Shown piece after piece: positions 31,970 through 44,230 of a stretch of 64,000 bases of DNA (position 1 is its first letter; the number at the start of each line of letters is the position of its first letter). Source of the stretch: Ralstonia soli (GTDB lineage Bacteria; Pseudomonadota; Gammaproteobacteria; Burkholderiales; Burkholderiaceae); NCBI RefSeq assembly GCF_023955655.1, contig NZ_JAMXHT010000003.1, positions 186,001-250,000 on the forward strand, read 5' to 3'. The notes under the pieces were generated by a model. The model searched no databases and was not told the origin of the DNA. It was given only the letters and a program-made list of their open reading frames with translations. A program made the translations under genes and the position numbers.

Positions 31970-33322
31970 TCAGCGCACCATGCAGGGGCGCTTGTTATCG
32001 AACTTCCAGTTGGGAATCAGTTGGCCCATGGCAATCGCATCGTCGCGCGCGCCCAGGCCGTGCTGCTTGTACAACGCGTGCGCTTTTTCGATCTGGTCCA
32101 TGTCGATCGTCACGCCCAGGCCTGGCTTGGCCGGCACATCGATCTCGCCGCCGACGATCTGGAACGGCTCGCGCGTCAAGCGCTGACCGTCCTGCCAGAT
32201 CCAGTGCGTGTCGATGGCGGTGATGTTGCCCGGCGCGGCTGCGGCCACGTGCGTGAACATCGCCAGCGAGATATCGAAGTGGTTGTTGGAGTGGGAGCCC
32301 CAGGTCAGGCCCCAGTCGTCGCACATCTGCGCCACGCGCACCGAGCCCTGCATCGTCCAGAAGTGCGGGTCGGCCAGCGGAATGTCGACCGAGTGCAGTT
32401 GAATGGCGTGCCCCATCTGGCGCCAGTCGGTGGCGATCATGTTGGTGGCTGTCGGCAGGCCCGTGGCGCGGCGGAATTCGGCCATCACCTCGCGACCGGA
32501 GTAGCCGCCCTCGGCGCCGCACGGGTCTTCGGCGTAGGCCAGCACGTCGCGCTTGTCGCGGCACAGGCGAATGGCTTCGGCCAGCGACCACGCGCCATTT
32601 GGGTCCAGCGTGACGCGGGCATCGGGAAACGCCTCGGCCAGCGCGGTGGTCACGACCATCTCGTCATCACCGCTGAGCACGCCGCCCTTGAGCTTGAAAT
32701 CCTTGAAGCCGTAGCGCGCATACGCCGCCTTGGCCAAGCGCACCACCGCTTCCGGCGTGAGCGCTTCCTCATGGCGCAGGCGGGTCCAGTCGTCGGTAGC
32801 GTCGCTGCCGTCGGCGTAATCGAGGTCGGTATGCTTGCGGTTGCCCACGAAGAACAGGTATCCGAGCACCGGCACCTTGGCGCGTTGCTGGCCCTGCCCC
32901 AGCAAGGCCGCCACGGGCACGCCGAGGTGCTGGCCCAGCAAATCAAGCAGCGCGCTTTCCAGCGCGGTCACCGCATGCACCGTGGTACGCAGATCGAAAG
33001 TCTGCAGACCACGGCCACCGGCGTCGCGGTCAGCAAACTGGCGGCGCACGGTGTTGAGCACGTTGTTGTAGGCACCGATGGGTTGTCCGACCACCAGCGG
33101 TGTCGCATCTTCAATGGTTTTGCGGATGGCCTCGCCGCCCGGCACTTCGCCTACGCCGATGTGGCCTTCGGAGTCTTCGAGGATGACGATGTTGCGCGTG
33201 AAGAACGGGCCGTGGGCACCGCTCAGGTTAAGCAGCATGCTGTCGCGCCCCGCCACGGGAATCACCTGGAGGCGGGTGACGTGCGGCGTGCGAGTCGGGG
33301 TTTCGGAGGCTGGGTGATCCAT
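31970..33322 (-). CDS. gudD: Glucarate dehydratase
   Basis: A 450-residue enolase-superfamily enzyme that dehydrates D-glucarate (and often L-idarate) to 5-dehydro-4-deoxyglucarate. It matches the family closely: [25 protein letters not shown], the Lys pair in FKDFKLKGG, metal ligands in [15 protein letters not shown] and TNMIATD, the His in [10 protein letters not shown], and the end DNKRPCMVR. The ATG at 33322 is preferred; one at 33340 is possible. It is the first gene of the sugar locus and lies next to the divergent GntR-type regulator. The later pathway enzymes are not in the window. Confidence 0.95.
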
Positions 33323-33344
33323 GGTCTTCACGTATGTCATCAGT

Positions 33345-33355
33345 CGTCGTACAAC
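33345..33355. promoter_or_regulatory. Candidate GntR operator between gudD and its regulator
   Basis: CGTCGTACAAC contains the near-palindrome GTYGTACRAC. It lies 23 bases upstream of the gudD start, just downstream of a TATAGT on the minus strand, where a bound repressor would block gudD transcription. The same 11-bp word recurs at 34204-34214. Confidence 0.5.
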
Positions 33356-33368
33356 ATGGAAGGCGACT

Positions 33369-33374
33369 ATAATG
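33369..33374 (+). promoter_or_regulatory. Candidate -10 box of the GntR regulator gene
   Basis: A perfect TATAAT lies 52 bases before the ATG at 33427. The -35 region at the right distance is poor and overlaps the candidate GTYGTACRAC operator, which would allow autoregulation. Confidence 0.5.
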
Positions 33375-33426
33375 GACACACCCCTACCGATCCACCCCTG
33401 GTAAACCCGCACCACCCGGAGACCGC

Positions 33427-34182
33427 ATGCCCACCGCCAGCAGCCCCGCAACGCTTGTGCGCCGTACTCAAAGCCTGGCGGACGTGGTGGTGGACCACGT
33501 CAAGGGGCGCATCGCCACCGAGTCCCTCCGCCCTGGCGACAAGCTGCCGACAGAATCCGCGCTGATGGAAGCGCTGGGCGTGAGCCGCACCGTGGTCCGC
33601 GAAGCCATTTCGCGGCTGCAGGCGAAGGGGCTGATCGAAACGCGCCACGGCATTGGCAGCTTCGTGCTGCCGCCGCGCGCTGACAACAGCATCCCGCTGG
33701 GCGATGCGTCCACGCTGCACGACATCCTGAGCATGCTGGAACTGCGCGTCGCCATTGAAACGGAATGCGCTGGCCTGGCCGCGCAACGCATCACGCCTGC
33801 TGAGATCGATGCCCTGCGCACCGCGCTCGAAGCCATCGAGCAGGATCAGGCCGACGGCAACGACAGCGCCACGTCCGATCTGCAGTTCCACCTGAGCATT
33901 GCCCGCGCCACCGGCAACGAGCACTTCGTGGGCGCCCTTGCGCAGCTCGGCAAGACGCTCATCCCCCGCACGCGGATGGGGCTGGCGCAGGTTGGATACT
34001 TGAACGCACCGGAACTGCGCGCCACCGTCAACCGGGAGCATCACAGCGTCTTCGAGGCCATTGCGCGCAAAGACCCGGAAGCCGCGCGCGCCGCCATGCG
34101 CATGCACCTGTCCAACAGCCGCGAACGGCTGCGCCGCGCGCACGAAGCGGCGGCCAAGCAGACGCCGCAAACCCCGGGCTGA
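33427..34182 (+). CDS. GntR/FadR-type regulator of the glucarate locus
   Basis: A 251-residue regulator. An N-terminal winged helix (residues about 15-80, [47 protein letters not shown]) is followed by an all-helical FCD ligand domain ([59 protein letters not shown]). It is divergent from gudD with about 100 bases between the starts and most likely represses that operon until a sugar acid binds. Confidence 0.9.
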
Positions 34183-34203
34183 ATCCCCGCGTGCAGCGGT
34201 CCA

Positions 34204-34214
34204 GTTGTACGACG
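34204..34214. promoter_or_regulatory. Second GTTGTACGACG site downstream of the regulator
   Basis: GTTGTACGACG is the exact reverse complement of the site at 33345-33355 and lies 22 bases after the regulator stop. It may be an auxiliary operator or chance. Confidence 0.35.
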
Positions 34215-34364
34215 TCCCATCAAAAGACGGCAATCCCGTGCAACCAACCATCACCCGTGTTGATAAAGGTTTGCATTTGCGCGTGCTCAGCCACGTAACC
34301 TGAGGATGCACCGACCCCTCGTGGGTGCGCTCCGGTCGCGGAAGAGAGAGCCGCGGCCTTCTTG

Positions 34365-34397
34365 GCCCTGATGCTTGTCCCGAGCATCAGGGCTTTT
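34365..34397 (+). terminator. Terminator in the gap after the GntR regulator
   Basis: GCCCTGATGCT and AGCATCAGGGC form a perfect 11-bp stem followed by TTTT. It lies about 180 bases after the regulator stop in a 300-base gap without other genes. Confidence 0.75.
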
Positions 34398-34440
34398 CTT
34401 TGGGCGACGACAACTCGGTGGCGTCCTTCCCTTTCCCACG

Positions 34441-34471
34441 AAAAAAAAGCCCCGGTGCGCGGGGCTTTTTA
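34441..34471. terminator. Bidirectional terminator
   Basis: AAAAAGCCCCG and CGGGGCTTTTT flank a short loop with A and T tracts on the two sides, so it can work in both directions. On the minus strand it ends the GlsB gene. Confidence 0.85.
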
Positions 34472-34487
34472 TTGTGGCGCGACGCAG

Positions 34488-34739
34488 CTAGCGCCCCCGA
34501 ACCACCAGATGATGGCCGGCCAGCAGGAGGATTGCGCCGATCACCGAGCCGACAAACCCCGCCGACTGCCCCGGCTCATACCAGCGCAGCAACTGGCCGA
34601 AAAAGCTCGCTGTCAGCGCCCCTGCAATGCCCACCATCATGGTGAGCAGAAAACCGCTGAACCCGCGTCCGGGCGTAATCCAGCGCGCGACGAGTCCAGC
34701 CAGAAAGCCGATGAGGACGGTCATACAAAGCAGGTGCAT
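34488..34739 (-). CDS. GlsB/YeaQ/YmgE family membrane protein
   Basis: An 83-residue inner-membrane protein with three hydrophobic segments: LLCMTVLIGFLAGLVARW, the Gly-rich FLLTMMVGIAGALTASFFG, and GFVGSVIGAILLLAG. This is the transglycosylase-associated-protein family (GlsB/YeaQ/YmgE), often stress-induced but without a known reaction. It is 42 bases downstream of the regulator with the unusual receiver and is followed by a terminator. Confidence 0.88.
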   Translation of the reverse strand: MHLLCMTVLIGFLAGLVARWITPGRGFSGFLLTMMVGIAGALTASFFGQLLRWYEPGQSAGFVGSVIGAILLLAGHHLVVRGR

Positions 34740-34781
34740 GGCGCGCTCCGTAAGAGGATCAACGCGGCAACGCAGAGCGCG

Positions 34782-35489
34782 TCAGTCGACGGCCACCGGG
34801 TCCATCACGCGCTCCAGGCAGAAGCCCTGCCCATAGATCGCGCGCAGGCGCAAACCGTTCTCGGCGCCGAGCAGCAGCTTCTTACGCAGCCGCGAGACGT
34901 GCGTATCCAGCGTGCGTGAATACGGGCTCAGCTCTCGGCCCCAGAGCGCCAGTTCAATGTCGGCACGCGAGAGCACGCGCCCCGCGTTGGCAAACAGCAG
35001 CAGCGCCAACTCAAACTCGCGCGCGTGCACGGACACCAACGCATCGCGCAGCCGGATGGAGCGGTTCTGCCGGTCAAGCGTGTACGGGCCCAGTTGGATC
35101 TCGGAGGCGCGCACCGCCCGGCTGACCGCAAAGCGGCGGATCAGCGCATCGAGCCGTGCGAGCAGTTCAGGTGGACGGATATCGCCCTGGAAGCACAGGT
35201 CGGCGCCATGGTTGAGCGCATCGGCCGTTTCGGTATCGGCCTGGCCATCGGCGAGGTAGACAATCGCCATGCCGGGGCCCACGCGATCGCGCACCGTGCG
35301 CACCAGGGACAGGCCCGGCATGTCGTGTGCCTGTGTGCCCACCATCAGCAGGTTGATGCCGTGCACGTCGATGGCTTCAAACACCTGGCGGGAGAGAAAC
35401 AGCGGCACGCATTCGAAGCGCGTGGGCTGCAGCGCGGAGTGGATCGCCTGCTGGCGAGCGAGATGCGTATCGATCAGACCGACTTTCAT
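34782..35489 (-). CDS. OmpR-type regulator with degenerate receiver
   Basis: A 235-residue protein with an N-terminal receiver-like domain (about 1-120) and a C-terminal winged-helix DNA-binding domain (YTLDRQNRSIRL to the end). Compared with the other regulator at 39912-40625, the phosphorylatable Asp is Gly51 (LLMVGTQ for LLLLDWQ), the conserved Thr is Ala80 and the Lys is Gly102. It should therefore not be phosphorylated in the usual way. The DNA-binding halves are clearly related (WGR, SRTL, TH, S, LR spacing). The ATG at 35489 is chosen because the upstream open frame is not receiver-like. Confidence 0.85.
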   Translation of the reverse strand: MKVGLIDTHLARQQAIHSALQPTRFECVPLFLSRQVFEAIDVHGINLLMVGTQAHDMPGLSLVRTVRDRVGPGMAIVYLADGQADTETADALNHGADLCFQGDIRPPELLARLDALIRRFAVSRAVRASEIQLGPYTLDRQNRSIRLRDALVSVHAREFELALLLFANAGRVLSRADIELALWGRELSPYSRTLDTHVSRLRKKLLLGAENGLRLRAIYGQGFCLERVMDPVAVD

Positions 35490-35523
35490 GGCTCGGTTTC
35501 GTGGATGGCTGCGCGCGGTGCAA

Positions 35524-35724
35524 TCAAGCGGTGGCGTGGCGGTCGGGTCGCGAAAGGCTTGCGTTGCCACCCTCGTCGTGCCACACGGAGATATGCCGAC
35601 CAGCCAGCCAGAGACGCTCGCCCCGCGGCGGATTCCCGTCGCCATGCAGGGCGTGATGCAGCTGCACGCGAACACGCTCGTAATCGCACTCGCTCAGCAC
35701 ATCGGTTGCGGTCTGGCTCAACAT
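35524..35724 (-). CDS. Small hypothetical protein
   Basis: A 66-residue frame beginning MLSQTATDVLSECDYERVR. A GAGG lies 9 bases before the ATG. The composition is acidic and amphipathic at first, then Gly/His/Trp-containing (LHGDGNPPRGERLWLAGRH), and looks protein-like. It ends 34 bases before the degenerate regulator and follows the TTGCAAA repeat, so it would be the first gene of that short unit. I recognise no family; the frame could also be non-coding leader. Confidence 0.45.
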   Translation of the reverse strand: MLSQTATDVLSECDYERVRVQLHHALHGDGNPPRGERLWLAGRHISVWHDEGGNASLSRPDRHATA

Positions 35725-35849
35725 ACGTGGCGCCTCGGAGGTGTCGTTGCTCGGCTTTTTTCCCAGGTGCCGTCGTCTCTCGACCGGTTGTTCACCGGTG
35801 CATGCTGTGCAGGTCGGCACTTGAACTGTAGGGCGCCCTTGCCCCCCGA

Positions 35850-35866
35850 TTGCAAATGATTGCAAA
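35850..35866 (+). promoter_or_regulatory. TTGCAAA direct repeat upstream of the small ORF and degenerate regulator
   Basis: TTGCAAA-TGA-TTGCAAA is a perfect direct repeat with a 10-base period, the form bound by OmpR/PhoB-type dimers. It lies 126 bases before the small ORF in an AT-rich patch after the kinase gene. A related repeat stands at 40850-40866 with 13 of 17 bases the same. Confidence 0.55.
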
Positions 35867-35922
35867 CACAAAGTGAAAATGACGCAGTGGGCTTGCCCGC
35901 CTGACAGTCATCCGCGCAGGCG

Positions 35923-38256
35923 TCAGGCGTCGTGGCGATGCGGCCCGCGCGGCAGCCACAGCGTGAAGGTGGAGCCCAGTCCCGGCGTGCTCTGTACGGC
36001 AATGCGACCGCCATGCCGATCGACCACCGTCTTCACGAACACAAGGCCGAGTCCGCTGCCCGATGGCGCATTGGGCATACCCTCATGCAGGCGGTGAAAC
36101 GGCTGGAACAGCCGTGGCTGATCGGCCAGGGCGATGCCGGCACCCTGGTCGGCGACCGCCACCGTGAACATCGTCTCGTCCTGCTCGACCGACACCGTCA
36201 CCACCGAGCCCGCCGAGCTGAACTTGATGGCGTTGTTGAGCAGGTTCACCAACGCACGCACCAGCAGGCGCGGCTCGCCGCGCACCGGTGCCTCGATATC
36301 GGCCACCACGCGCACTTCCACCTGATGCTGATTCGCCAGCGGCCAGACCTCGTCGGCTGCATCGAGCACCAGGCCGACGAGATCCACATCCACCAGCTTC
36401 AATGCCTGCGATTCCGCGCGCGCCATGTCGATAAAGGCATCCGCCAGTTCCAGCGTACGCGAAGACAACTGACCGATGCGCGAGAGCAGCACCTCGCGAT
36501 CCAGCGCGCGCGAGGCATCGCGCTGCAGCTCGATCAACGCGAGGATGGCGCTCTGCGGCGAGCGCATGTCGTGCGAGATGAAGCGCAGCGCCTCTTCGCG
36601 GTGGCGTTCCGCCCGGCGCACCGGCGTGATGTCGGCAAAGCTCACGATGATGTCGATGGGGCGACCTGCGTCGTCACGCAACGCAGCGGCGTACATCAGC
36701 AATGAGCGGCCGTCGTGCGTTTGCAGTTCCGCGGGCTCGAGCCCCCTCGGGTCGGTCAGCCAGCGCGCCCAATAGTGCTCGCCCGGCGTGGGGTCGGGAA
36801 ACGCGCACGTCAGCAAGGTCGGCAGGTCGTGCAGCGTGGCGGCACGGGTCTGCCCCGGCGGCGCCAACTGACGGGCCAGGTCGGCACTGCGGCCGTTCGC
36901 GAGGCGGATCGTGCCATCGTGGGTACAGATGACCGTGGCGTCGGGCAGGCTTTCCAGCGCATCGGCCAGGAAGCGGCGCAGGCCACGCAGCTTGTCGGTG
37001 AGCGAAGCGACGGCGTCCATGTGCGCGCCCAGCGTGCGGCCGGTGCGGGCCAGTGGGGTGGCGTCTGGCAGCAGGCCCGGCTCGCGTGTCAGACGCTGCA
37101 TCTCGTCACGCAGAAAGCGCAGTGCCGCCTCCTGCTGACGCCAGCTCCAGAGCGGATACAGCACCAGCGGCCCCACCAGCGCCGCAAACGGCGGCAACCA
37201 GCGATTGGCAAACACCAGCGTGCCGATCGCACCCAATAGCAACACCGCAGCCCCTGCCAGCGATACAGCGAGCGCCATGCGCGGGGTGAGCCACCGCACC
37301 GCGCACGCGGTCATCAGCAAGGGCAGCAGCGTCATCGCCCAGAACACGCCGGCCGGCACCGGCAGGATGGCGCTACCGTCGAGCACCGTCTGCGTGGCGT
37401 TGGCCAGCACCTCCACGCCGCTCATCGTGCGCGACGACGGTGTCGCAAAAATATCCGATACGCCCGAGGCCGTTGCCCCGATCAGCACCAGCTTGCCGGC
37501 AAAGGCATCTGACGCCACGCGGCCATTGAGCACATCCAACGCGGGTACATGCCGGTACGTGCCCGCCGGCCCTGCAAAGTTGAGGCGAACCGGGGCCTGC
37601 CGTGTCCAACCGCCGGCATCGGTTTCGGCGTCGAGCAACGCCGGCACGGAAGCCGGTGGACGCGGCGCCTGCCGTGCGAGCTGCACCGCAAGATGGTCGA
37701 GCACATGCGCGCGCGGCCCTTCGGCGAGATACACCCCGCGCACCACGCTGTCCGCATCGGGTGCGGCATTGATATGCGCAACGGTGGCGTTGATCCCAAG
37801 GAACGGATAGTGGTACACGCGCCCCTGCTCCGTGCGCTCGGGCAACGCGGGCAGGATGACATGCCCCGCCTGCGTGATCGCGGCCGTCAATGCGCGATCG
37901 CCTTCGGGGTGCGCGAGATCCGGCTCGATCAGCAGAATGTCGACGCCAATGGCGCGCGGCCGCGCCTGGCCCACGCGTGCGATCAGGTCTGCCAGGCGGC
38001 TGCGCGGCCACGGCCAGCGCCCCACCGCGTCGAGGCTCTGATCATCAATCGCAACGATGACGATGTCGTCCCGCGGTGCGTGCCCGTGCAGCGTGATCAC
38101 CGTGTCGTACAACGCCGCATCGAGCCGCGTGACCAAGCTCCAGTGCACCGCCCCCACCGTGAGCAACGCAGCCACCGCCACCAGCACGACCCACTCCACC
38201 AGCGAGCGCAGCCCAAGGCGTCGCACGGCTGGCACGGCGGGCGCGTGTTCAGTCAT
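35923..38256 (-). CDS. CHASE2 sensor histidine kinase
   Basis: A 777-residue membrane histidine kinase. The order is one membrane helix (about 20-42), a periplasmic CHASE2 domain (DDIVIVAIDDQSLDAVGRWPW to LVLIGATASGVSDIF), three membrane helices (about 305-385), a PAS-like domain (LADALESLPDATVICTHDG), a HisKA domain with His562 in FISHDMRSP, and an ATPase domain with NLLNNAIKFS, DQGAGI and GSGLGLVFVK. Its start overlaps the LysM-FecR gene by 8 bases. It probably phosphorylates the regulator at 39912-40625. The signal is unknown. Confidence 0.9.
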   Translation of the reverse strand: MTEHAPAVPAVRRLGLRSLVEWVVLVAVAALLTVGAVHWSLVTRLDAALYDTVITLHGHAPRDDIVIVAIDDQSLDAVGRWPWPRSRLADLIARVGQARPRAIGVDILLIEPDLAHPEGDRALTAAITQAGHVILPALPERTEQGRVYHYPFLGINATVAHINAAPDADSVVRGVYLAEGPRAHVLDHLAVQLARQAPRPPASVPALLDAETDAGGWTRQAPVRLNFAGPAGTYRHVPALDVLNGRVASDAFAGKLVLIGATASGVSDIFATPSSRTMSGVEVLANATQTVLDGSAILPVPAGVFWAMTLLPLLMTACAVRWLTPRMALAVSLAGAAVLLLGAIGTLVFANRWLPPFAALVGPLVLYPLWSWRQQEAALRFLRDEMQRLTREPGLLPDATPLARTGRTLGAHMDAVASLTDKLRGLRRFLADALESLPDATVICTHDGTIRLANGRSADLARQLAPPGQTRAATLHDLPTLLTCAFPDPTPGEHYWARWLTDPRGLEPAELQTHDGRSLLMYAAALRDDAGRPIDIIVSFADITPVRRAERHREEALRFISHDMRSPQSAILALIELQRDASRALDREVLLSRIGQLSSRTLELADAFIDMARAESQALKLVDVDLVGLVLDAADEVWPLANQHQVEVRVVADIEAPVRGEPRLLVRALVNLLNNAIKFSSAGSVVTVSVEQDETMFTVAVADQGAGIALADQPRLFQPFHRLHEGMPNAPSGSGLGLVFVKTVVDRHGGRIAVQSTPGLGSTFTLWLPRGPHRHDA

Positions 38257-39928
38257 TGAGCAGGAGATTGCCGCCACCGCTCTGCACGGGGCTGTGCCTG
38301 GAGTCGCCGACGAAGGCGCCAACGTCGATGCGTTGCGGCTTGGCATAGACCACCGATGGCGCATCGCCCAGATCCACGCCCGTTCGGATGTAGTACACAC
38401 CAGCCGGCGGCTGCGCAATGGCGGCCTCGGTGCCTTCGCTCACAATATCGGCGATGGGCGTGGCGAATGTCGGCTCACTGGCCAGCTGCACGCGCGTGCG
38501 CGCACCAGATGCCGCCAGCTCAGGTGCCAACGCAGACCAGTGGGCGTGCAGCTTGCCGTCATTGCCGGCATCGACCCCGGCCGTCGGCACGGCATCCGGC
38601 GGGATGTCCAGCACACGGAAGCGCAGCGCATCGCTCCACGGGCCGGTCTTGCCATCGGCGGCCACCGAGCGCACGCGCCACCACCATGTGCCGGTATCCA
38701 GCGGCTTGCTCACCCGCACATCCTGGCCATGCTGCCGCACAACCGGCGATGCAAACGTCTGCGCGCCGGCGATTTCCATGTCGTAGCTCCTAGCATCGGA
38801 CACGACGGCCCATGCGAATGCCACTTCGCCGCTACGGTAGGTCTTGCCGTTGGCAGGCTGGATCGTGTAAGGCGCCTCCGGATGCAGGCGCACGGTAAAC
38901 GGCCGCGTGGCGGACTTGCTGGTCAGCCCAAGCGCATCGATGCTCTGTACGACCAGCGTGTAGTCGCCATCCTCATCGCCACACAGGTTGGCACCGGGCG
39001 TCTTGGCGGACTGATAGGCACTGAGTTCGGTCAACGCGGCATCGCGCGCCACGGCGGCGCGATATCCGACCGCCCCCTTGACCGGTTGCCACGTCGCGCG
39101 AAAGCACGGCGTCTGCACCAGCTCGGGAATCGCATCCAGCCGAGGAGCCGCAGGCAGCGTCGCGCGCTTCAGCCGCCCGCCCGACGCCTGCACGCCAAAC
39201 CCCGCTTTGATGGCCTGCGACTGGCGCCCCGCCTTCGCGGCCACCTCGCCTTCCAGCACGGAACTTGTCGACGCGGAGTCGCTCGCCTGCACGCGGAAAC
39301 GCGTGCCACGCACGCCCGTTACCAGTGCCGGCGTAGAGATTTCGTAGCGGCCCACGCCCGTCTTCTTTGGCGAGACGCTCGATTCGGTTTCACCTTGCTT
39401 GACCTGCACGCGCACGTCGATCAGCCCGGCACGCGCAAATGCCCGCACGCGCGACAGCGCCACGCGGCTGCCAGGCGGCACCGTCACACGCGTACCGTCA
39501 TCGAAGGCCAGCGTGACGGCACCCTTGTCGCCCGTATCAATCTGCGCGTCTTCCGCGAGCTTCATGCCGGCTTGCAGCGGCTTGCCCTCGGTGATCGCAT
39601 CGCGCGCAAACACCACGTGCGCCGTAGCGGGCACCACCGGAATGCGATCGAACGGAATGCGCAGCAGCAAACCCGGCTGCAACCGGTACGGATTGGCCAC
39701 GCGGTTGCGCTGCTGCAGCAGGCGCCAGCCTTCCACACCATCCATGTAGCGGTCTGCCAGGCTGATCAACGTGTCGCCCTGTTGCACGCGGTAGAGGAAA
39801 TCCGTGCCGTCGGCGCCGGAAGGCTGTGCCATGGCGCACTGCCACGCACCGCCAAAAACAATGAACGCGCCGACAAACGCGGCGCGTCCAATCGAACCAC
39901 TCCAAATTGCGTCAGCTTGCTTCGCCAT
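38249..39928 (-). CDS. LysM-FecR envelope protein
   Basis: A 559-residue exported protein. A signal peptide ends near Ala34 (CAMAQ); then a LysM domain (residues 46-92, YRVQQGDTLISLADRYM), a FecR-type domain (about 104-245, LAEDAQIDTGDKGAVTLAFDDGTRVTVPPGS and TPALVTGVRGTRFRV), and FN3-like repeats (WQPVKGAVGYRAAV, WWWRVRSVAADG). LysM suggests binding to peptidoglycan. Its start overlaps the upstream regulator by 17 bases and its stop overlaps the kinase start by 8, so the three proteins are tightly coupled. It may be the periplasmic partner of CHASE2. Confidence 0.85.
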   Translation of the reverse strand: MAKQADAIWSGSIGRAAFVGAFIVFGGAWQCAMAQPSGADGTDFLYRVQQGDTLISLADRYMDGVEGWRLLQQRNRVANPYRLQPGLLLRIPFDRIPVVPATAHVVFARDAITEGKPLQAGMKLAEDAQIDTGDKGAVTLAFDDGTRVTVPPGSRVALSRVRAFARAGLIDVRVQVKQGETESSVSPKKTGVGRYEISTPALVTGVRGTRFRVQASDSASTSSVLEGEVAAKAGRQSQAIKAGFGVQASGGRLKRATLPAAPRLDAIPELVQTPCFRATWQPVKGAVGYRAAVARDAALTELSAYQSAKTPGANLCGDEDGDYTLVVQSIDALGLTSKSATRPFTVRLHPEAPYTIQPANGKTYRSGEVAFAWAVVSDARSYDMEIAGAQTFASPVVRQHGQDVRVSKPLDTGTWWWRVRSVAADGKTGPWSDALRFRVLDIPPDAVPTAGVDAGNDGKLHAHWSALAPELAASGARTRVQLASEPTFATPIADIVSEGTEAAIAQPPAGVYYIRTGVDLGDAPSVVYAKPQRIDVGAFVGDSRHSPVQSGGGNLLLND

Positions 39929-40625
39929 CTTCTTGCGTGGTTTCCAGCCGATAGCCATGCGAATACACCGAGACCAGTCGCACGCCATTCTTCTGATTGA
40001 GATCGAGTTTGAGTCGCAGCTTGGAGATATGCGTGGCCAGCGTGCGCGAATCAGGGCCGATGCTGCGCCCCCAAACCGCCTGCTCAATGAGCTCGCGCGG
40101 CACCAGCTTGCCGACATTGCGAAACAGGTAGAGCCCAAGGTCAAACTCGCGCGGCGACAGCTCGACCTGGGAGCCGTTGAGTGTGAGTACACGGCCCACT
40201 GGGTCCACCGCATACGGGCCCACGCGAATACGCTCCAGCGATTCGCTCGTGCGCGGGGCTGCGCGTCGCAGCAGCGCACCCACGCGCGCTACCAGTTCGG
40301 CGCGGCGTACTGGTTTGATGACGTAATCGTCTGCACCGGCGGCCAGCCCGCGCACCACGTCGTCTTCAAGCGAACGATTGGTCAGGAACAGCACCGGCAG
40401 CGCGGGGCCAACCGTTTGCCGCACCCAGCTTACAAGCTGGATACCGCTGATATCGGGCAACTGCCAATCGAGCAGCAGCAGATCGAACGTGCGATCCCGC
40501 AGTGCCTTGACGAAGGCATCGCCGTTACTGAAACACTCGCATTCGTATCCGGACGAAACCAGGATCTCGCGAATCAACTCCGACTGCGCCTGGTTGTCTT
40601 CTACCGAGGCAATTCGTATCGCCAT
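39912..40625 (-). CDS. OmpR-type response regulator
   Basis: A 237-residue response regulator with an intact receiver: acidic residues in SVEDN, the phosphorylated Asp53 in LLLLDWQLP, Thr82 and Lys104 in VIKPV. The C-terminal winged helix (YAVDPVGRVLTL onward, WGRSIGPDSRTLATHISKLR) binds DNA. It is the first gene of the unit followed by the LysM-FecR and kinase genes. A TTGCAAA direct repeat 225 bases upstream may be its own binding site. Confidence 0.93.
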   Translation of the reverse strand: MAIRIASVEDNQAQSELIREILVSSGYECECFSNGDAFVKALRDRTFDLLLLDWQLPDISGIQLVSWVRQTVGPALPVLFLTNRSLEDDVVRGLAAGADDYVIKPVRRAELVARVGALLRRAAPRTSESLERIRVGPYAVDPVGRVLTLNGSQVELSPREFDLGLYLFRNVGKLVPRELIEQAVWGRSIGPDSRTLATHISKLRLKLDLNQKNGVRLVSVYSHGYRLETTQEDGEAS

Positions 40626-41081
40626 CTGGACTGCCCTTTCCCCGTACCGGGGCCGGCCATCGCTACGCGGGATGCCGGCTCACTCCCTTGTCGTTGTGAT
40701 CGGGGTCCCGGACCGGCGCATCGTGTTCGATCCGCCAGTCACCTCCGGCGCGGCTCCAACCTCCCGCGCAAGACCTTACCTACGCCCAGCCAGCGCGTTT
40801 CGCATGCTGACTTGAGCACAACTCATCCTAAAAGGCCGCTCTTGTCATATTGCAAACAATTGTGAAAACCTAAGCGCGGAGCCGGGTTTTTATGGCGTTC
40901 TATCATTTTTCATCGCGCCATTACAAGACACACGCGTTTGAAAAGTATAGGAACCGGTCGACTGGATAGCAGGTGTACCGGCTATACGCTGCCCTGGATT
41001 CAGCCGCTTGGGCGCCCCGTCACCGGCATGGGACATCAGCACGCGAGCACCAGGATCGGAAACGGATATCGCGCGCCAACG
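40626..41081. other. Noncoding upstream region of the signalling locus
   Basis: About 455 bases without a supported gene. It becomes AT-rich from about 40840 and holds the TTGCAAA repeat at 40850-40866. I see no consensus promoter pair. Confidence 0.5.
40850..40866 (+). promoter_or_regulatory. TTGCAAA-type direct repeat upstream of the response regulator
   Basis: TTGCAAA-CAA-TTGTGAA keeps the 10-base period and orientation of the repeat at 35850-35866. It is 225 bases before the regulator start. Confidence 0.5.
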
Positions 41082-41112
41082 AAAAAGCCCCGAACGAATC
41101 GGGGCTTTTTTC
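41082..41112. terminator. Terminator downstream of tRNA-Cys
   Basis: AAAAAGCCCCGA and TCGGGGCTTTTTT form a 12-bp stem around ACGAA, with A and T tracts on both sides. On the minus strand it follows tRNA-Cys by 9 bases. Confidence 0.85.
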
Positions 41113-41121
41113 TTGACGTTC

Positions 41122-41195
41122 TGGAGGCGGAGGCCGGAATCGAACCGGCGTACACGGCTTTGCAGGCCGCTGCATAACCACTTTGCTACCCCGCC
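41122..41195 (-). tRNA. tRNA-Cys(GCA)
   Basis: A 74-base tRNA on the minus strand. Acceptor stem GGCGGGG pairs with CCTCCGCC-type bases, the anticodon loop CTGCAAA carries GCA, the T-loop is GGTTCGATTCC and CCA is encoded. It is the last gene of the Gly-Gly-Cys unit. Confidence 0.95.
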
Positions 41196-41287
41196 AGGGG
41201 TTCAGCACCGCATTGTAGCAATTCGTAGCGAACCGCGTCTGTGCCGTGCCGATAAAGAAAAAGGGAAGCATGGCTTCCCTTCGGGAT

Positions 41288-41363
41288 TGGAGCGGGAAAC
41301 GAGGCTCGAACTCGCGACCTCAACCTTGGCAAGGTTGCGCTCTACCAACTGAGCTATTCCCGC
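41288..41363 (-). tRNA. tRNA-Gly(GCC), copy 2
   Basis: A 76-base tRNA: GCGGGAA acceptor stem, AGCTCAGTTGGTAGAG D-arm, anticodon GCC, GAGTTCGAGCC T-arm, CCA encoded. The sequence is identical to the copy at 41417-41492. Confidence 0.97.
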
Positions 41364-41416
41364 GTAACCGGTTATGCCGCCGCGCCAACACTCCAACACG
41401 GCCACACATTTCAAAC

Positions 41417-41492
41417 TGGAGCGGGAAACGAGGCTCGAACTCGCGACCTCAACCTTGGCAAGGTTGCGCTCTACCAACTGAGCTATTCCCGC
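41417..41492 (-). tRNA. tRNA-Gly(GCC), copy 1
   Basis: Identical over 76 bases to the downstream copy; flanks differ. It is nearest to the promoter at 41568-41597 and so is transcribed first. Confidence 0.97.
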
Positions 41493-41567
41493 ATTTTGGC
41501 TACCAGCACTGCCGTACAACCTTTGTGCTGCCAGACCGTTTCGTCACATCGCTGCAACGAGAACGAG

Positions 41568-41597
41568 ATTATGGCAAAAAAGAATCTGGCTCGTCAA
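41568..41597 (-). promoter_or_regulatory. Sigma-70 promoter of the tRNA Gly-Gly-Cys unit
   Basis: On the minus strand TTGACG (41597-41592) and CATAAT (41573-41568) are 18 bases apart. It lies between the pgsA stop and the first tRNA-Gly, giving the tRNAs their own promoter. AAAGGTGTTGACG is the same 13-mer as in the tRNA-Asn promoter. Confidence 0.7.
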
Positions 41598-41625
41598 CAC
41601 CTTTGCGCAAGAAGTTTTTAGAGGC

Positions 41626-42201
41626 TCACTTTGCGCGCTCGCGAATCTGCGGCCACGCGAGCTTCATGTAGTACGCCATCGACCACAGCGTGAGCACCGC
41701 CGCCACGTAGATCAGCCACGTGCCCCACACCTGCGCGTCGATCACGCCGAGCAGCCTGTCTTGAAATAGCAGCAGCGGAATCGCGATCATCTGGAAGGTC
41801 GTCTTCAGCTTGCCGAGGAAGTTGACGGCCACGCTCTTGGACGCGCCGATCTGCGCCATCCACTCGCGCAGGGCGGAGATGGTGATCTCGCGGCCAATGA
41901 TGACGAGCGCGATGACGTCCGACACGCGACCCAACGCCAGCAGCACCAGCAACGCGGCCGCCACCATCAGCTTGTCTGCCACCGGATCGAGGAACGCGCC
42001 GAAGGCCGAGGTCTGGTTCCACCGGCGCGCGAGGAAGCCGTCAAACCAATCGGTCAGGCTCGCAACGATGAAGAACACCGCGGCCGTCAGGTTCTTGGCG
42101 GGCAGCGCCATCCAGGTGTCCGGCACGTAGAACACGCCCACCACCAGCGGGATCATGGCCACACGCAGCCAGGTCAGGAGGATCGGGAAGTTGAAAGGCA
42201 T
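41626..42201 (-). CDS. pgsA: CDP-diacylglycerol-glycerol-3-phosphate 3-phosphatidyltransferase
   Basis: A 191-residue membrane enzyme making phosphatidylglycerol phosphate. It has the CDP-alcohol phosphotransferase motif as DGFLARRWNQTSAFGAFLDPVADK, with four membrane segments and the start MPFNFPILLTWLRV. The ATG at 42201 is chosen by family start; the frame to 42336 reads poorly and no strong ribosome site is seen. The uvrC-pgsA-tRNA-Gly order matches many proteobacteria. Confidence 0.93.
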   Translation of the reverse strand: MPFNFPILLTWLRVAMIPLVVGVFYVPDTWMALPAKNLTAAVFFIVASLTDWFDGFLARRWNQTSAFGAFLDPVADKLMVAAALLVLLALGRVSDVIALVIIGREITISALREWMAQIGASKSVAVNFLGKLKTTFQMIAIPLLLFQDRLLGVIDAQVWGTWLIYVAAVLTLWSMAYYMKLAWPQIRERAK

Positions 42202-42268
42202 GGCAAATCGGGAGGACGACTGCCGCGAGAGCCCCAGCCCGCGCGGCAAGATGCGGCATTGTCGCCGA

Positions 42269-44230
42269 TCAGTGCAGCTGGCGGTAGATTTCTTCGGCCA
42301 GGGTCTGAGAGATGCCCTCCACCGTGGCCAGCTCATCGACGCTCGCAGCCATCACGCCGCGCAGCCCGCCGAAGCGCGCCAGCAGCCGCTGCCGGCGCTT
42401 GGCACCGATGCCCTCGATCTCTTCCAGACGCGAGGTGTTGCGGGTCTTGGCCCGCTTGGCGCGCATGCCGGTGATGGCGAAACGATGCGCTTCATCGCGG
42501 ATCTGCGCGACGAGCATCAGCGCGGCGCTGCCCTGCCCCAACTCCAGCGAAGGACGGCCATCGGCAAAGACGAGCGTCTCCAGGCCGACCTTGCGACCCT
42601 CGCCTTTGGCCACGCCAACGAGCAGGCCGATGTCGAGTCCGAGTTCTTCAAACACCTGGCGCGCGACCTCCACCTGGCCCTTGCCACCGTCGATCAGCAC
42701 GATGGTGGGCATGTTGGGCGTGTCTTCGCCGGCCTGCTCGACGATCTTCTGATAACGACGCGTAAGCACCTGGCGCATGGCCGCGTAGTCGTCGCCGGGG
42801 GTGATGTCCTGGATGTTGTAGCGGCGGTATTCGCCGTTCTGCATGGCGTGGCCGTGGAAGACCACGCATGAAGCTTGGGTGGCCTCGCCGGCGGTGTGGC
42901 TGATGTCGAAGCATTCGACGCGCAATGCGGCGAGGTCTTCGAGGTCGATGCCGATGGTCTCAGCCAGCGCGCGCGTGCGGGCTTGCTGGCTGCCTTGTTC
43001 GGAGAGCCTGCGCATGAGCGACAGCTCGGCGCCCTTCTCGGCCATCTCCAGCCAGGCGCGGCGCCCGCCCTGCGGTTGACGCACGACGGACACGCGGCGC
43101 CCGGCTTGTTCGGCCAGCGCGTCAATCAACTCCGTGGCGTGAATGGGGTGGCTGACCACCAGCACCGGTGGCACGAACTGATCAAGATAGTGCTGCGCGA
43201 CGAAGGCCTCAAGGATGTCGCTGGCCATGCGTTCGGCATCGCGTGGCGATTCCGTTGCCGCCTCGGCATCAGCCTCGACGTCCACGCCGACAATGGCGGC
43301 GCCCTCTTCCACATGCGTGGGGAAGTACGCCTTGTCGCCCAGATGCCGGCCGCCGCGCACCATCGCCAGGTTCACGCAAGCGTGGCCGCCCTTGATGGCC
43401 ACGGCCAGGATGTCGATGTCGCTGGCGTTGCCGACCTCTTCCACCGACTGCTGCTTGAGCACCGTCGACAGCGCGCCGATCTGGTCACGCACGATCGCGG
43501 CCTGCTCGAACTGCAGCGCCTCGGAATAGCGCTGCATCTTGTCCTGCAGCGTCTGCATGACTTCGTCCTGGCGGCCCAGCAGGAACCCCGCGGCGTTGGC
43601 GACGTCGCGGGCGTAGTCCTCCGCGCTGATCGCCTGCACGCACGGGCCGCTGCAGCGATGGATCTGGTGCAGCAGGCAAGGGCGCGTACGGTTGTTGAAG
43701 ACGGTGTCTTCACATGTGCGCAGCTGGAACACCTTCTGCAGGATCTGCATGCTCTCGCGCACCGCATGCGCACTCGGGAACGGGCCGAAGTACTGATGCT
43801 TGCGGTCCGTCGCGCCGCGGTAGTACGCCATGCGCGGATACGCATGCTGCGTGAGCTTGAGATACGGATACGACTTGTCGTCGCGGAAAAGGATGTTGTA
43901 GCGCGGGGCCAGCGCCTTGATGAGGTTGTTCTCCAGCAGCAGCGCCTCGGCCTCGCTGCGCACGACGGTGGTGTCGATGCGCGCGATCTTCGCCACCATC
44001 ATTGCAATGCGCGGCGACAGCAGCGTTTTGTTGAAGTAGCTGGAGACGCGCTTCTTCAGGTCACGCGCCTTTCCCACGTAGAGCACGTTGCCTTGCACAT
44101 CGAAATAGCGGTACACGCCCGGCAGGTTCGGCAAGCGGGCGATGTGCGCTTTCGCATCGAATTCCGGCGGGCTGGACTCGGCGCGCTCGGGCGTCTTGGG
44201 GAGATCGGGTTGCGTGGGGTCGGACGACAT
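42269..44230 (-). CDS. uvrC: Excinuclease ABC subunit C
   Basis: A 653-residue nucleotide-excision-repair nuclease. It has the GIY-YIG domain ([27 protein letters not shown]), the UVR motif region ([20 protein letters not shown]), the C-terminal RNase H-like endonuclease ([22 protein letters not shown]) and tandem helix-hairpin-helix motifs at the end. It cuts both sides of a lesion with UvrA and UvrB. It starts about 80 bases from the divergent earP gene. Confidence 0.96.

Follow-up and report, generated by a model that had tools for sequence, protein, structure and literature searches.

The locus described here lies in Ralstonia soli (NCBI RefSeq assembly GCF_023955655.1, contig NZ_JAMXHT010000003.1), within positions 186,001 to 250,000 of the contig, a stretch of 64,000 nucleotides (nt) that is referred to as the window and in which all positions below are counted. 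Five open reading frames (ORFs) follow one another on its minus strand, in the order response regulator 1 (RR1), LysM-FecR protein, CHASE2-PAS histidine kinase, a 66-residue ORF and response regulator 2 (RR2):

39912..40625, minus strand: RR1, an intact OmpR/PhoB-type response regulator of 237 residues (Pfam Response_reg 91 bits, Trans_reg_C 64 bits)
38249..39928, minus strand: LysM-FecR protein of 559 residues (Pfam FecR 59.2 bits, LysM 31.8 bits)
35923..38256, minus strand: CHASE2-PAS histidine kinase of 777 residues (Pfam CHASE2 184.3, HATPase_c 88.9 and PAS_4 50.4 bits)
35524..35724, minus strand: small ORF of 66 residues, a possible leader ORF
34782..35489, minus strand: RR2, an OmpR-type regulator with a pseudo-receiver, 235 residues (Pfam Trans_reg_C 58.7 bits)

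An earlier reading of the letters alone (the sequence-only reading) had placed all five ORFs in this order between 34782 and 40625 and had the first three genes overlapping, and both statements are borne out. RR1 and the LysM-FecR gene share 17 nt in all 16 Ralstonia genomes compared, the LysM-FecR start codon thus falling within the RR1 gene, and the LysM-FecR and kinase genes share 8 nt. The genes for RR1, the LysM-FecR protein, the kinase and RR2 are found together in each of these 16 genomes, and the arrangement is therefore unlikely to be due to chance. In the kinase the HisKA domain scores 21.0 bits, under the Pfam cut-off of 26.9; its H-box, FISHDMR, is retained in all 16 orthologues and the GSGLGL motif in 15 of them. 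The N-terminus of the LysM-FecR protein resembles a signal peptide, as judged by eye, and a sequence search for relatives of this protein with a solved structure returned none. Values of the ratio of nonsynonymous to synonymous polymorphism (pN/pS) across the 16 genomes are 0.043 for RR1, 0.181 for the kinase and 0.205 for the LysM-FecR protein (15 sequences, L115 being dropped). In L115 the LysM-FecR gene is frameshifted and ends at residue 495 instead of 559.

The two regulators differ in their phosphorylation pocket. That of RR1 is complete (E9, D10, D53, T82, K104), while the same five columns of RR2 hold D, T, G, A and G. Across the 16 orthologues of RR2 both the Asp and the Lys columns are invariably Gly, the Thr column is Ala in 15 and Gly in one, and the second acid is Thr in 15 and Ala in one, with the first acid still Asp throughout; the claim of the sequence-only reading that the second regulator is unphosphorylatable thus extends to the entire set. 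The Response_reg profile scores 19.6 bits against RR2, under its cut-off of 30.2, and the winged helix is clearly recovered. An AlphaFold model of RR2 (43 rows; mean predicted local distance difference test score 87.5, predicted template modelling score 0.57) displays a receiver and a winged helix. Its whole-chain matches in the Protein Data Bank are OmpR/PhoB regulators at template modelling (TM) scores below 0.55, with loosely packed domains, and against isolated receivers the TM score is 0.86-0.90 of the target. The pN/pS of RR2 is 0.094 (0.073 in the receiver and 0.120 in the DNA-binding part), and for this reason RR2 is under purifying selection rather than decaying, its dead receiver being maintained. 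The recognition helix SRTLDTHVSRLR is retained in RR2, and a helix SRTLDTHVSRLRKKL is consistent with the RR1 subfamily; one position of the helix is Asp in 25 of 25 RR1 proteins from other genera and Ala in the Ralstonia RR1. Elsewhere in the same genome the pocket of a further OmpR-type regulator (L147, G000:C1:326020-326244) is likewise damaged, reading D, Q, G, S, S, and this protein falls outside the RR1 clade.

Both predicted transcription units of the locus are preceded by an 18-bp direct-repeat box, TTNNCAATNNTTTGCAWT, which is present in the promoter of RR1 and in that of the small ORF and RR2 in all 16 Ralstonia genomes:

40897..40910, minus strand: element AAAAATGATAGAAC upstream of box 1, present upstream of RR1 in 16 of 16 Ralstonia genomes
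40849..40866, minus strand: box 1, TTCACAATTGTTTGCAAT, upstream of RR1 (pattern match)
40825..40830, minus strand: -10-like hexamer TAGGAT, 18 nt past box 1 (among 16 Ralstonia genomes, TAGGAT 11 times and TAGCAT 5 times)
35849..35866, minus strand: box 2, TTTGCAATCATTTGCAAT, upstream of the small ORF and RR2 (pattern match)
35825..35830, minus strand: -10-like hexamer TACAGT, 18 nt past box 2 (TACAGT in 14, TACAAT in one and TACATT in one of 16 Ralstonia genomes)

These 32 promoter sites, two per genome and all at this locus, comprise 31 exact matches to TTNNCAATNNTTTGCAWT and one with a single mismatch. The 16 genomes hold no further exact copy, and nine more sites with one mismatch (one word being found in three genomes), against two for the reversed control. 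The same rarity is seen with related patterns: TTTGCAAT has three copies in the window, every one on the minus strand and in the two promoters, with none on the plus strand; TTTGCAATNNTTTGCAAT, at up to two mismatches, matches only the two promoter places in its own genome (reversed control 0); and the looser TTNNCAWTNNTTNNCAWT recovers 31 sites at the locus and six others, no two of which are the same word (control 0). The upstream element AAAAATGATAGAAC is found at one place only in its own genome at up to one mismatch. A TANNNT hexamer begins 18 nt past the box in 32 of 32 promoters, and the box would therefore overlap the -35 region, where an OmpR-type activator is expected to sit. A scan for sigma-70 promoters found none, with 1.0 expected.

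In other genera the operon was studied in a sample. Matches to the LysM-FecR protein occur in 76 of 150 genomes of the family, 14 of these being Ralstonia; extended loci were studied for 27 of the remaining 62, chosen for a strong match and a spread of genera. The kinase adjoins the LysM-FecR gene in 26 of the 27 (the exception being L087), and an RR1-type regulator stands beside one or the other in 26, lying about 8 kb beyond the kinase in L091. Hence the tie between LysM-FecR protein and kinase drawn in the sequence-only reading recurs across genera as it does in Ralstonia. In genus g11 (L075, L079, L082) the operon is split or reordered, and an additional regulator whose pocket is damaged accompanies it, of a kind seen in none of the other 24 loci. 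In 9 of the 27 loci box-like sites (at most one mismatch) stand no more than 300 nt ahead of RR1 or the LysM-FecR gene, and 10 of 18 such sites fall in this upstream 3.8% of the bases (binomial P 2e-10, the related genomes being non-independent). Exclusivity of the box to the operon is ruled out beyond Ralstonia, where 30 of 136 genomes contain 33 exact sites; among the 14 of these 33 that were examined, eight precede a lipoprotein gene pair and four lie elsewhere (L174, L177-L179). Two of the latter, L177 and L178 of genus g12, carry the exact box as TTAACAATTTTTTGCATT at what is apparently the same place, and the word recurs in a third g12 genome.

The eight lipoprotein sites are exact boxes 140-158 nt upstream of an orthologous gene pair in as many genomes, six of genus g25 and two of g14. 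The lipoprotein has no Pfam match, and its named relatives are from Burkholderia-type genera (among the best 120 of 1775 matches). A full-length orthologue is present in 11 of the 16 Ralstonia genomes and a fragment in one. The sole 12-mer common to the regions upstream of all 11, which resembles the core of the box, is AAAACAATTGTG (reverse complement CACAATTGTTTT), the corresponding word of box 1 being CACAATTGTTTG. Within the groups searched, the 11-mer CACAATTGTTT is found only at box 1 and the 11 lipoprotein sites, and it is absent from 418,729 bases of operon loci from other genera. The lipoprotein pair is a candidate output of the circuit. An uncharacterised lipoprotein gene pair with a box-like core upstream was recorded at L189 (G000:C29:369210-370249).

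RR2 itself is a single-copy gene in all 16 Ralstonia genomes, always adjoining the operon at 185-489 nt past the kinase stop; in the present genome it starts 433 nt past that stop, with a box and hexamer of its own. Together with the boxes common to both promoters this agrees with the earlier suggestion that the second regulator is part of the system. Eleven RR2 loci were recovered from named genomes: eight named Ralstonia (L103-L110, 93-94% identity), two "Burkholderiaceae bacterium" (L102 at 95% and L111 at 89%) and one distant (26%). Against 5.8 billion proteins, the best 120 of 196 matches comprise 19 clusters at 82-94% identity with the next at 38%, and among them the organism-named clusters are all Ralstonia, including R. 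mannitolilytica and R. solanacearum. As for the block of genes as a whole, the LysM-FecR/kinase pair co-occurs across genera, but these searches place RR2 in Ralstonia only. In an IQ-TREE phylogeny of 68 regulators RR2 forms a long branch within the clade of operon RR1 proteins (ultrafast bootstrap, UFBoot, 95) but stands apart from the Ralstonia RR1, and L158, a paralogue of the same genome, likewise falls within this clade. FastTree gives the placement of RR2 a support of 0.84-0.95 with all sequences and 0.97-1.0 without the damaged g11 proteins. RR2 thus belongs, by its sequence, to the RR1 subfamily. A recent duplication of the Ralstonia RR1 is unsupported, RR2 being inside the subfamily yet not sister to that protein. 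Long-branch attraction may account for its grouping with the damaged second regulators of g11 (UFBoot 89).

Each of the two transcripts is predicted to begin with a long leader, the start sites being placed from the hexamers:

40626..40818, minus strand: predicted leader of RR1, about 193 nt (covariation)
35490..35818, minus strand: predicted RR2 leader, about 329 nt, containing the small ORF (covariation)

In the RR1 leader 10 base pairs are changed on both sides (shuffled mean 4.0, slid controls 1-5), and in the RR2 leader 17 (15 sequences, L074 left out; shuffled mean 8.7, slid controls 2-9). By one and the same procedure the covariation excess per 100 pairs is 13.2 for the RR1 leader and 10.6 for that of RR2 vs 7.2 for the highest of 25 coding windows, with the caveat that both leaders rank among the more variable stretches of the locus. 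There is hence moderate evidence, from comparison of sequences, for structured RNA leaders on both transcripts. Rfam recovered no family other than tRNAs over 33000-43000, and a covariance model of the RR1 leader gave nothing convincing in the 27 loci from other genera (best E 0.08). The small ORF has no Pfam match, and 11 homologues were found, of which the two with an organism name are Ralstonia. A role for it as a conserved signalling protein is weak: its pN/pS is 0.64 across the 14 genomes other than L062 and L074 (codons 1-48 give 0.52, the later ones 0.87), L074 lacks it, and in L062 its beginning is frameshifted. It could be a leader ORF.

The three-gene core of the locus is already known as the BiofilmReg operon, reported from Burkholderia contaminans and its relatives (Voronina et al. 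2016, PMC5192318), and the parts of that account drawn on here assign the three-gene form to Ralstonia pickettii. Resemblances extend to the order of regulator, LysM-FecR protein and CHASE2 kinase on one strand, which is found in all 16 Ralstonia genomes, and to the LysM-FecR start within the regulator gene (PMC5192318). A single promoter with a long leader ahead of the regulator may be a further one: the leader is of a predicted 173 nt there (PMC5192318), and box 1 with its hexamer would give about 193 nt here, where the sigma-70 scan yielded no promoter and the conserved element AAAAATGATAGAAC lies further upstream. The DUF4136 fourth gene of the Burkholderia form is not present here, its place being taken by the small ORF and RR2. 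Where this source deals with a second regulator, it is a duplicated, reversed copy in Pandoraea thiooxydans, an arrangement matched by that of g11, and none is described for Ralstonia; nor do these parts of the source name an operator box or direct targets (PMC5192318). A search of the open-access literature produced no report of a second regulator beside the BiofilmReg operon in Ralstonia.

Also known is the use of a live and a pseudo-receiver regulator with one kinase, as in CmrRST of Clostridioides difficile, where the kinase is accompanied by the typical OmpR-family CmrR and the pseudo-receiver CmrT (PMC12548384). CmrR and CmrT are the closest known analogue of the pairing of RR1 and RR2. 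As described in the portions of PMC12548384 used here, CmrR binds upstream of its own operon, much as the RR1 promoter carries the box as a candidate site. However, CmrRST is a single operon, whereas a second promoter is predicted here; Glu replaces Asp in CmrT and Gly does so in RR2; the CmrR site is an inverted repeat with 12 exact genome matches, in contrast to a direct repeat at two exact places per genome; and the LysM-FecR protein is an addition relative to CmrRST (PMC12548384). More generally, OmpR-type regulators with a pseudo-receiver combine a receiver fold lacking the phosphotransfer residues with a winged helix, according to the relevant part of a review (PMC12632262). RR2 fits this definition, having lost these residues in all 16 orthologues and retaining the receiver fold in its model, whose fold matches include DNA-bound CosR (8uvk, 8uvx) and the atypical orphan regulator 2hqr (TM 0.47-0.51, 16-18% identity). 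Unlike those regulators, RR2 adjoins a live kinase-regulator pair, with which it has a promoter box in common. The features not met in the open-access literature searched are the box with its rarity, the presence of RR2 as a partner in Ralstonia, and the link to the lipoprotein.

The interpretation that we favor, and to which we give an even chance, is that the locus is the Ralstonia version of the BiofilmReg envelope two-component system, to which an old regulator from the same subfamily, working independently of phosphorylation, has been joined under the same operator. Periplasmic sensing of the cell wall and a co-regulatory role of RR2, both put forward in the sequence-only reading, are inferences within it. 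A periplasmic LysM-FecR protein bound to peptidoglycan would tune the CHASE2 kinase, which would phosphorylate RR1; phospho-RR1 would then bind the direct-repeat boxes over the -35 regions and activate transcription of its own operon as well as of the small ORF with RR2. The same boxes would be bound by RR2 without phosphate, as a homodimer or with RR1, and because such binding would not need phosphate it could set a signal-independent level of the loop, acting as memory or damping. Output beyond the locus may include the envelope lipoprotein pair.

Several observations weigh against this interpretation. Upstream of the operon in other genera, 18 of 27 loci lack a box-like site at up to one mismatch, and enrichment there is likewise seen for the reversed control (2 of 3 sites at up to one mismatch, and 7 of 21 at up to two as compared with 18 of 57 for the box), so that base composition explains part of the upstream enrichment; of the 14 exact sites examined outside Ralstonia, two are at the operon (L075, L086). 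The lipoprotein gene is gone from 4 of the 16 Ralstonia genomes, the Ralstonia lipoprotein site is three mismatches off the loose pattern, and taken singly such a site does not stand out from shuffled sequence (fractions 0.075-0.325); with so few box sites a wider output appears hard to define. Support for placing RR2 in the RR1 clade falls to 0.24-0.77 when the DNA-binding part is used alone, and in this part 41 of 98 residues are identical between RR1 and RR2. This last difference, together with the good conservation of RR2, fits a relay in which RR1 controls its own locus only and RR2, its amount set by kinase activity, is the true output regulator acting at different sites across the genome. 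The confinement of exact boxes to two promoters in 16 genomes would indeed leave RR1 little else to regulate. Nevertheless, RR2 retains the recognition helix of the subfamily, the lipoprotein promoters bear an RR1-type box in two genera, and no second conserved motif turned up, though none was sought; such a relay is accordingly rather unlikely.

If, on the other hand, RR2 were to occupy the boxes without activating, it would damp the RR1 loop as a competitor, which the same boxes at both promoters, the retained recognition helix and the lost pocket would allow. This is improbable; against it, RR2 carries Ile at the K+2 position (residue 104) in all 16 orthologues, one of certain residues that the review, in the part used here, ties to active conformations in CheY (PMC12632262). 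That RR2 serves some other signal or partner, is here by old linkage and is merely co-expressed through its promoter box would sit well with its not being sister to the Ralstonia RR1 in the trees; this is highly improbable in view of its linkage in 16 of 16 genomes with the same operator and spacing. The favored reading of RR2 as a phosphate-independent partner of RR1 at the same boxes also permits a more far-reaching proposal, which is tentative and more likely wrong than right. Phosphate-gated and phosphate-blind relatives, with an operator that among the 16 Ralstonia genomes is exact only at their own two promoters, would form a near-closed private circuit and thereby a self-contained device, of memory or of gain setting, for the state of the envelope; both transcripts would have structured leaders, and the lipoprotein pair would be driven by a weakened copy of the operator.

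A passage of a 2025 review describes the activation and inactivation of bacterial pseudo-receivers as a mystery (PMC12632262). In the present locus two regulators from a single subfamily, one live and one dead, occur with a common 18-bp box at two promoters, making a division of labor between them testable. In Burkholderia contaminans interruption of the regulator gene of the BiofilmReg operon abolished biofilm, as stated in the part of the report consulted (PMC5192318), and the box and the lipoprotein pair are candidates for a binding site and an output, respectively, of this operon.

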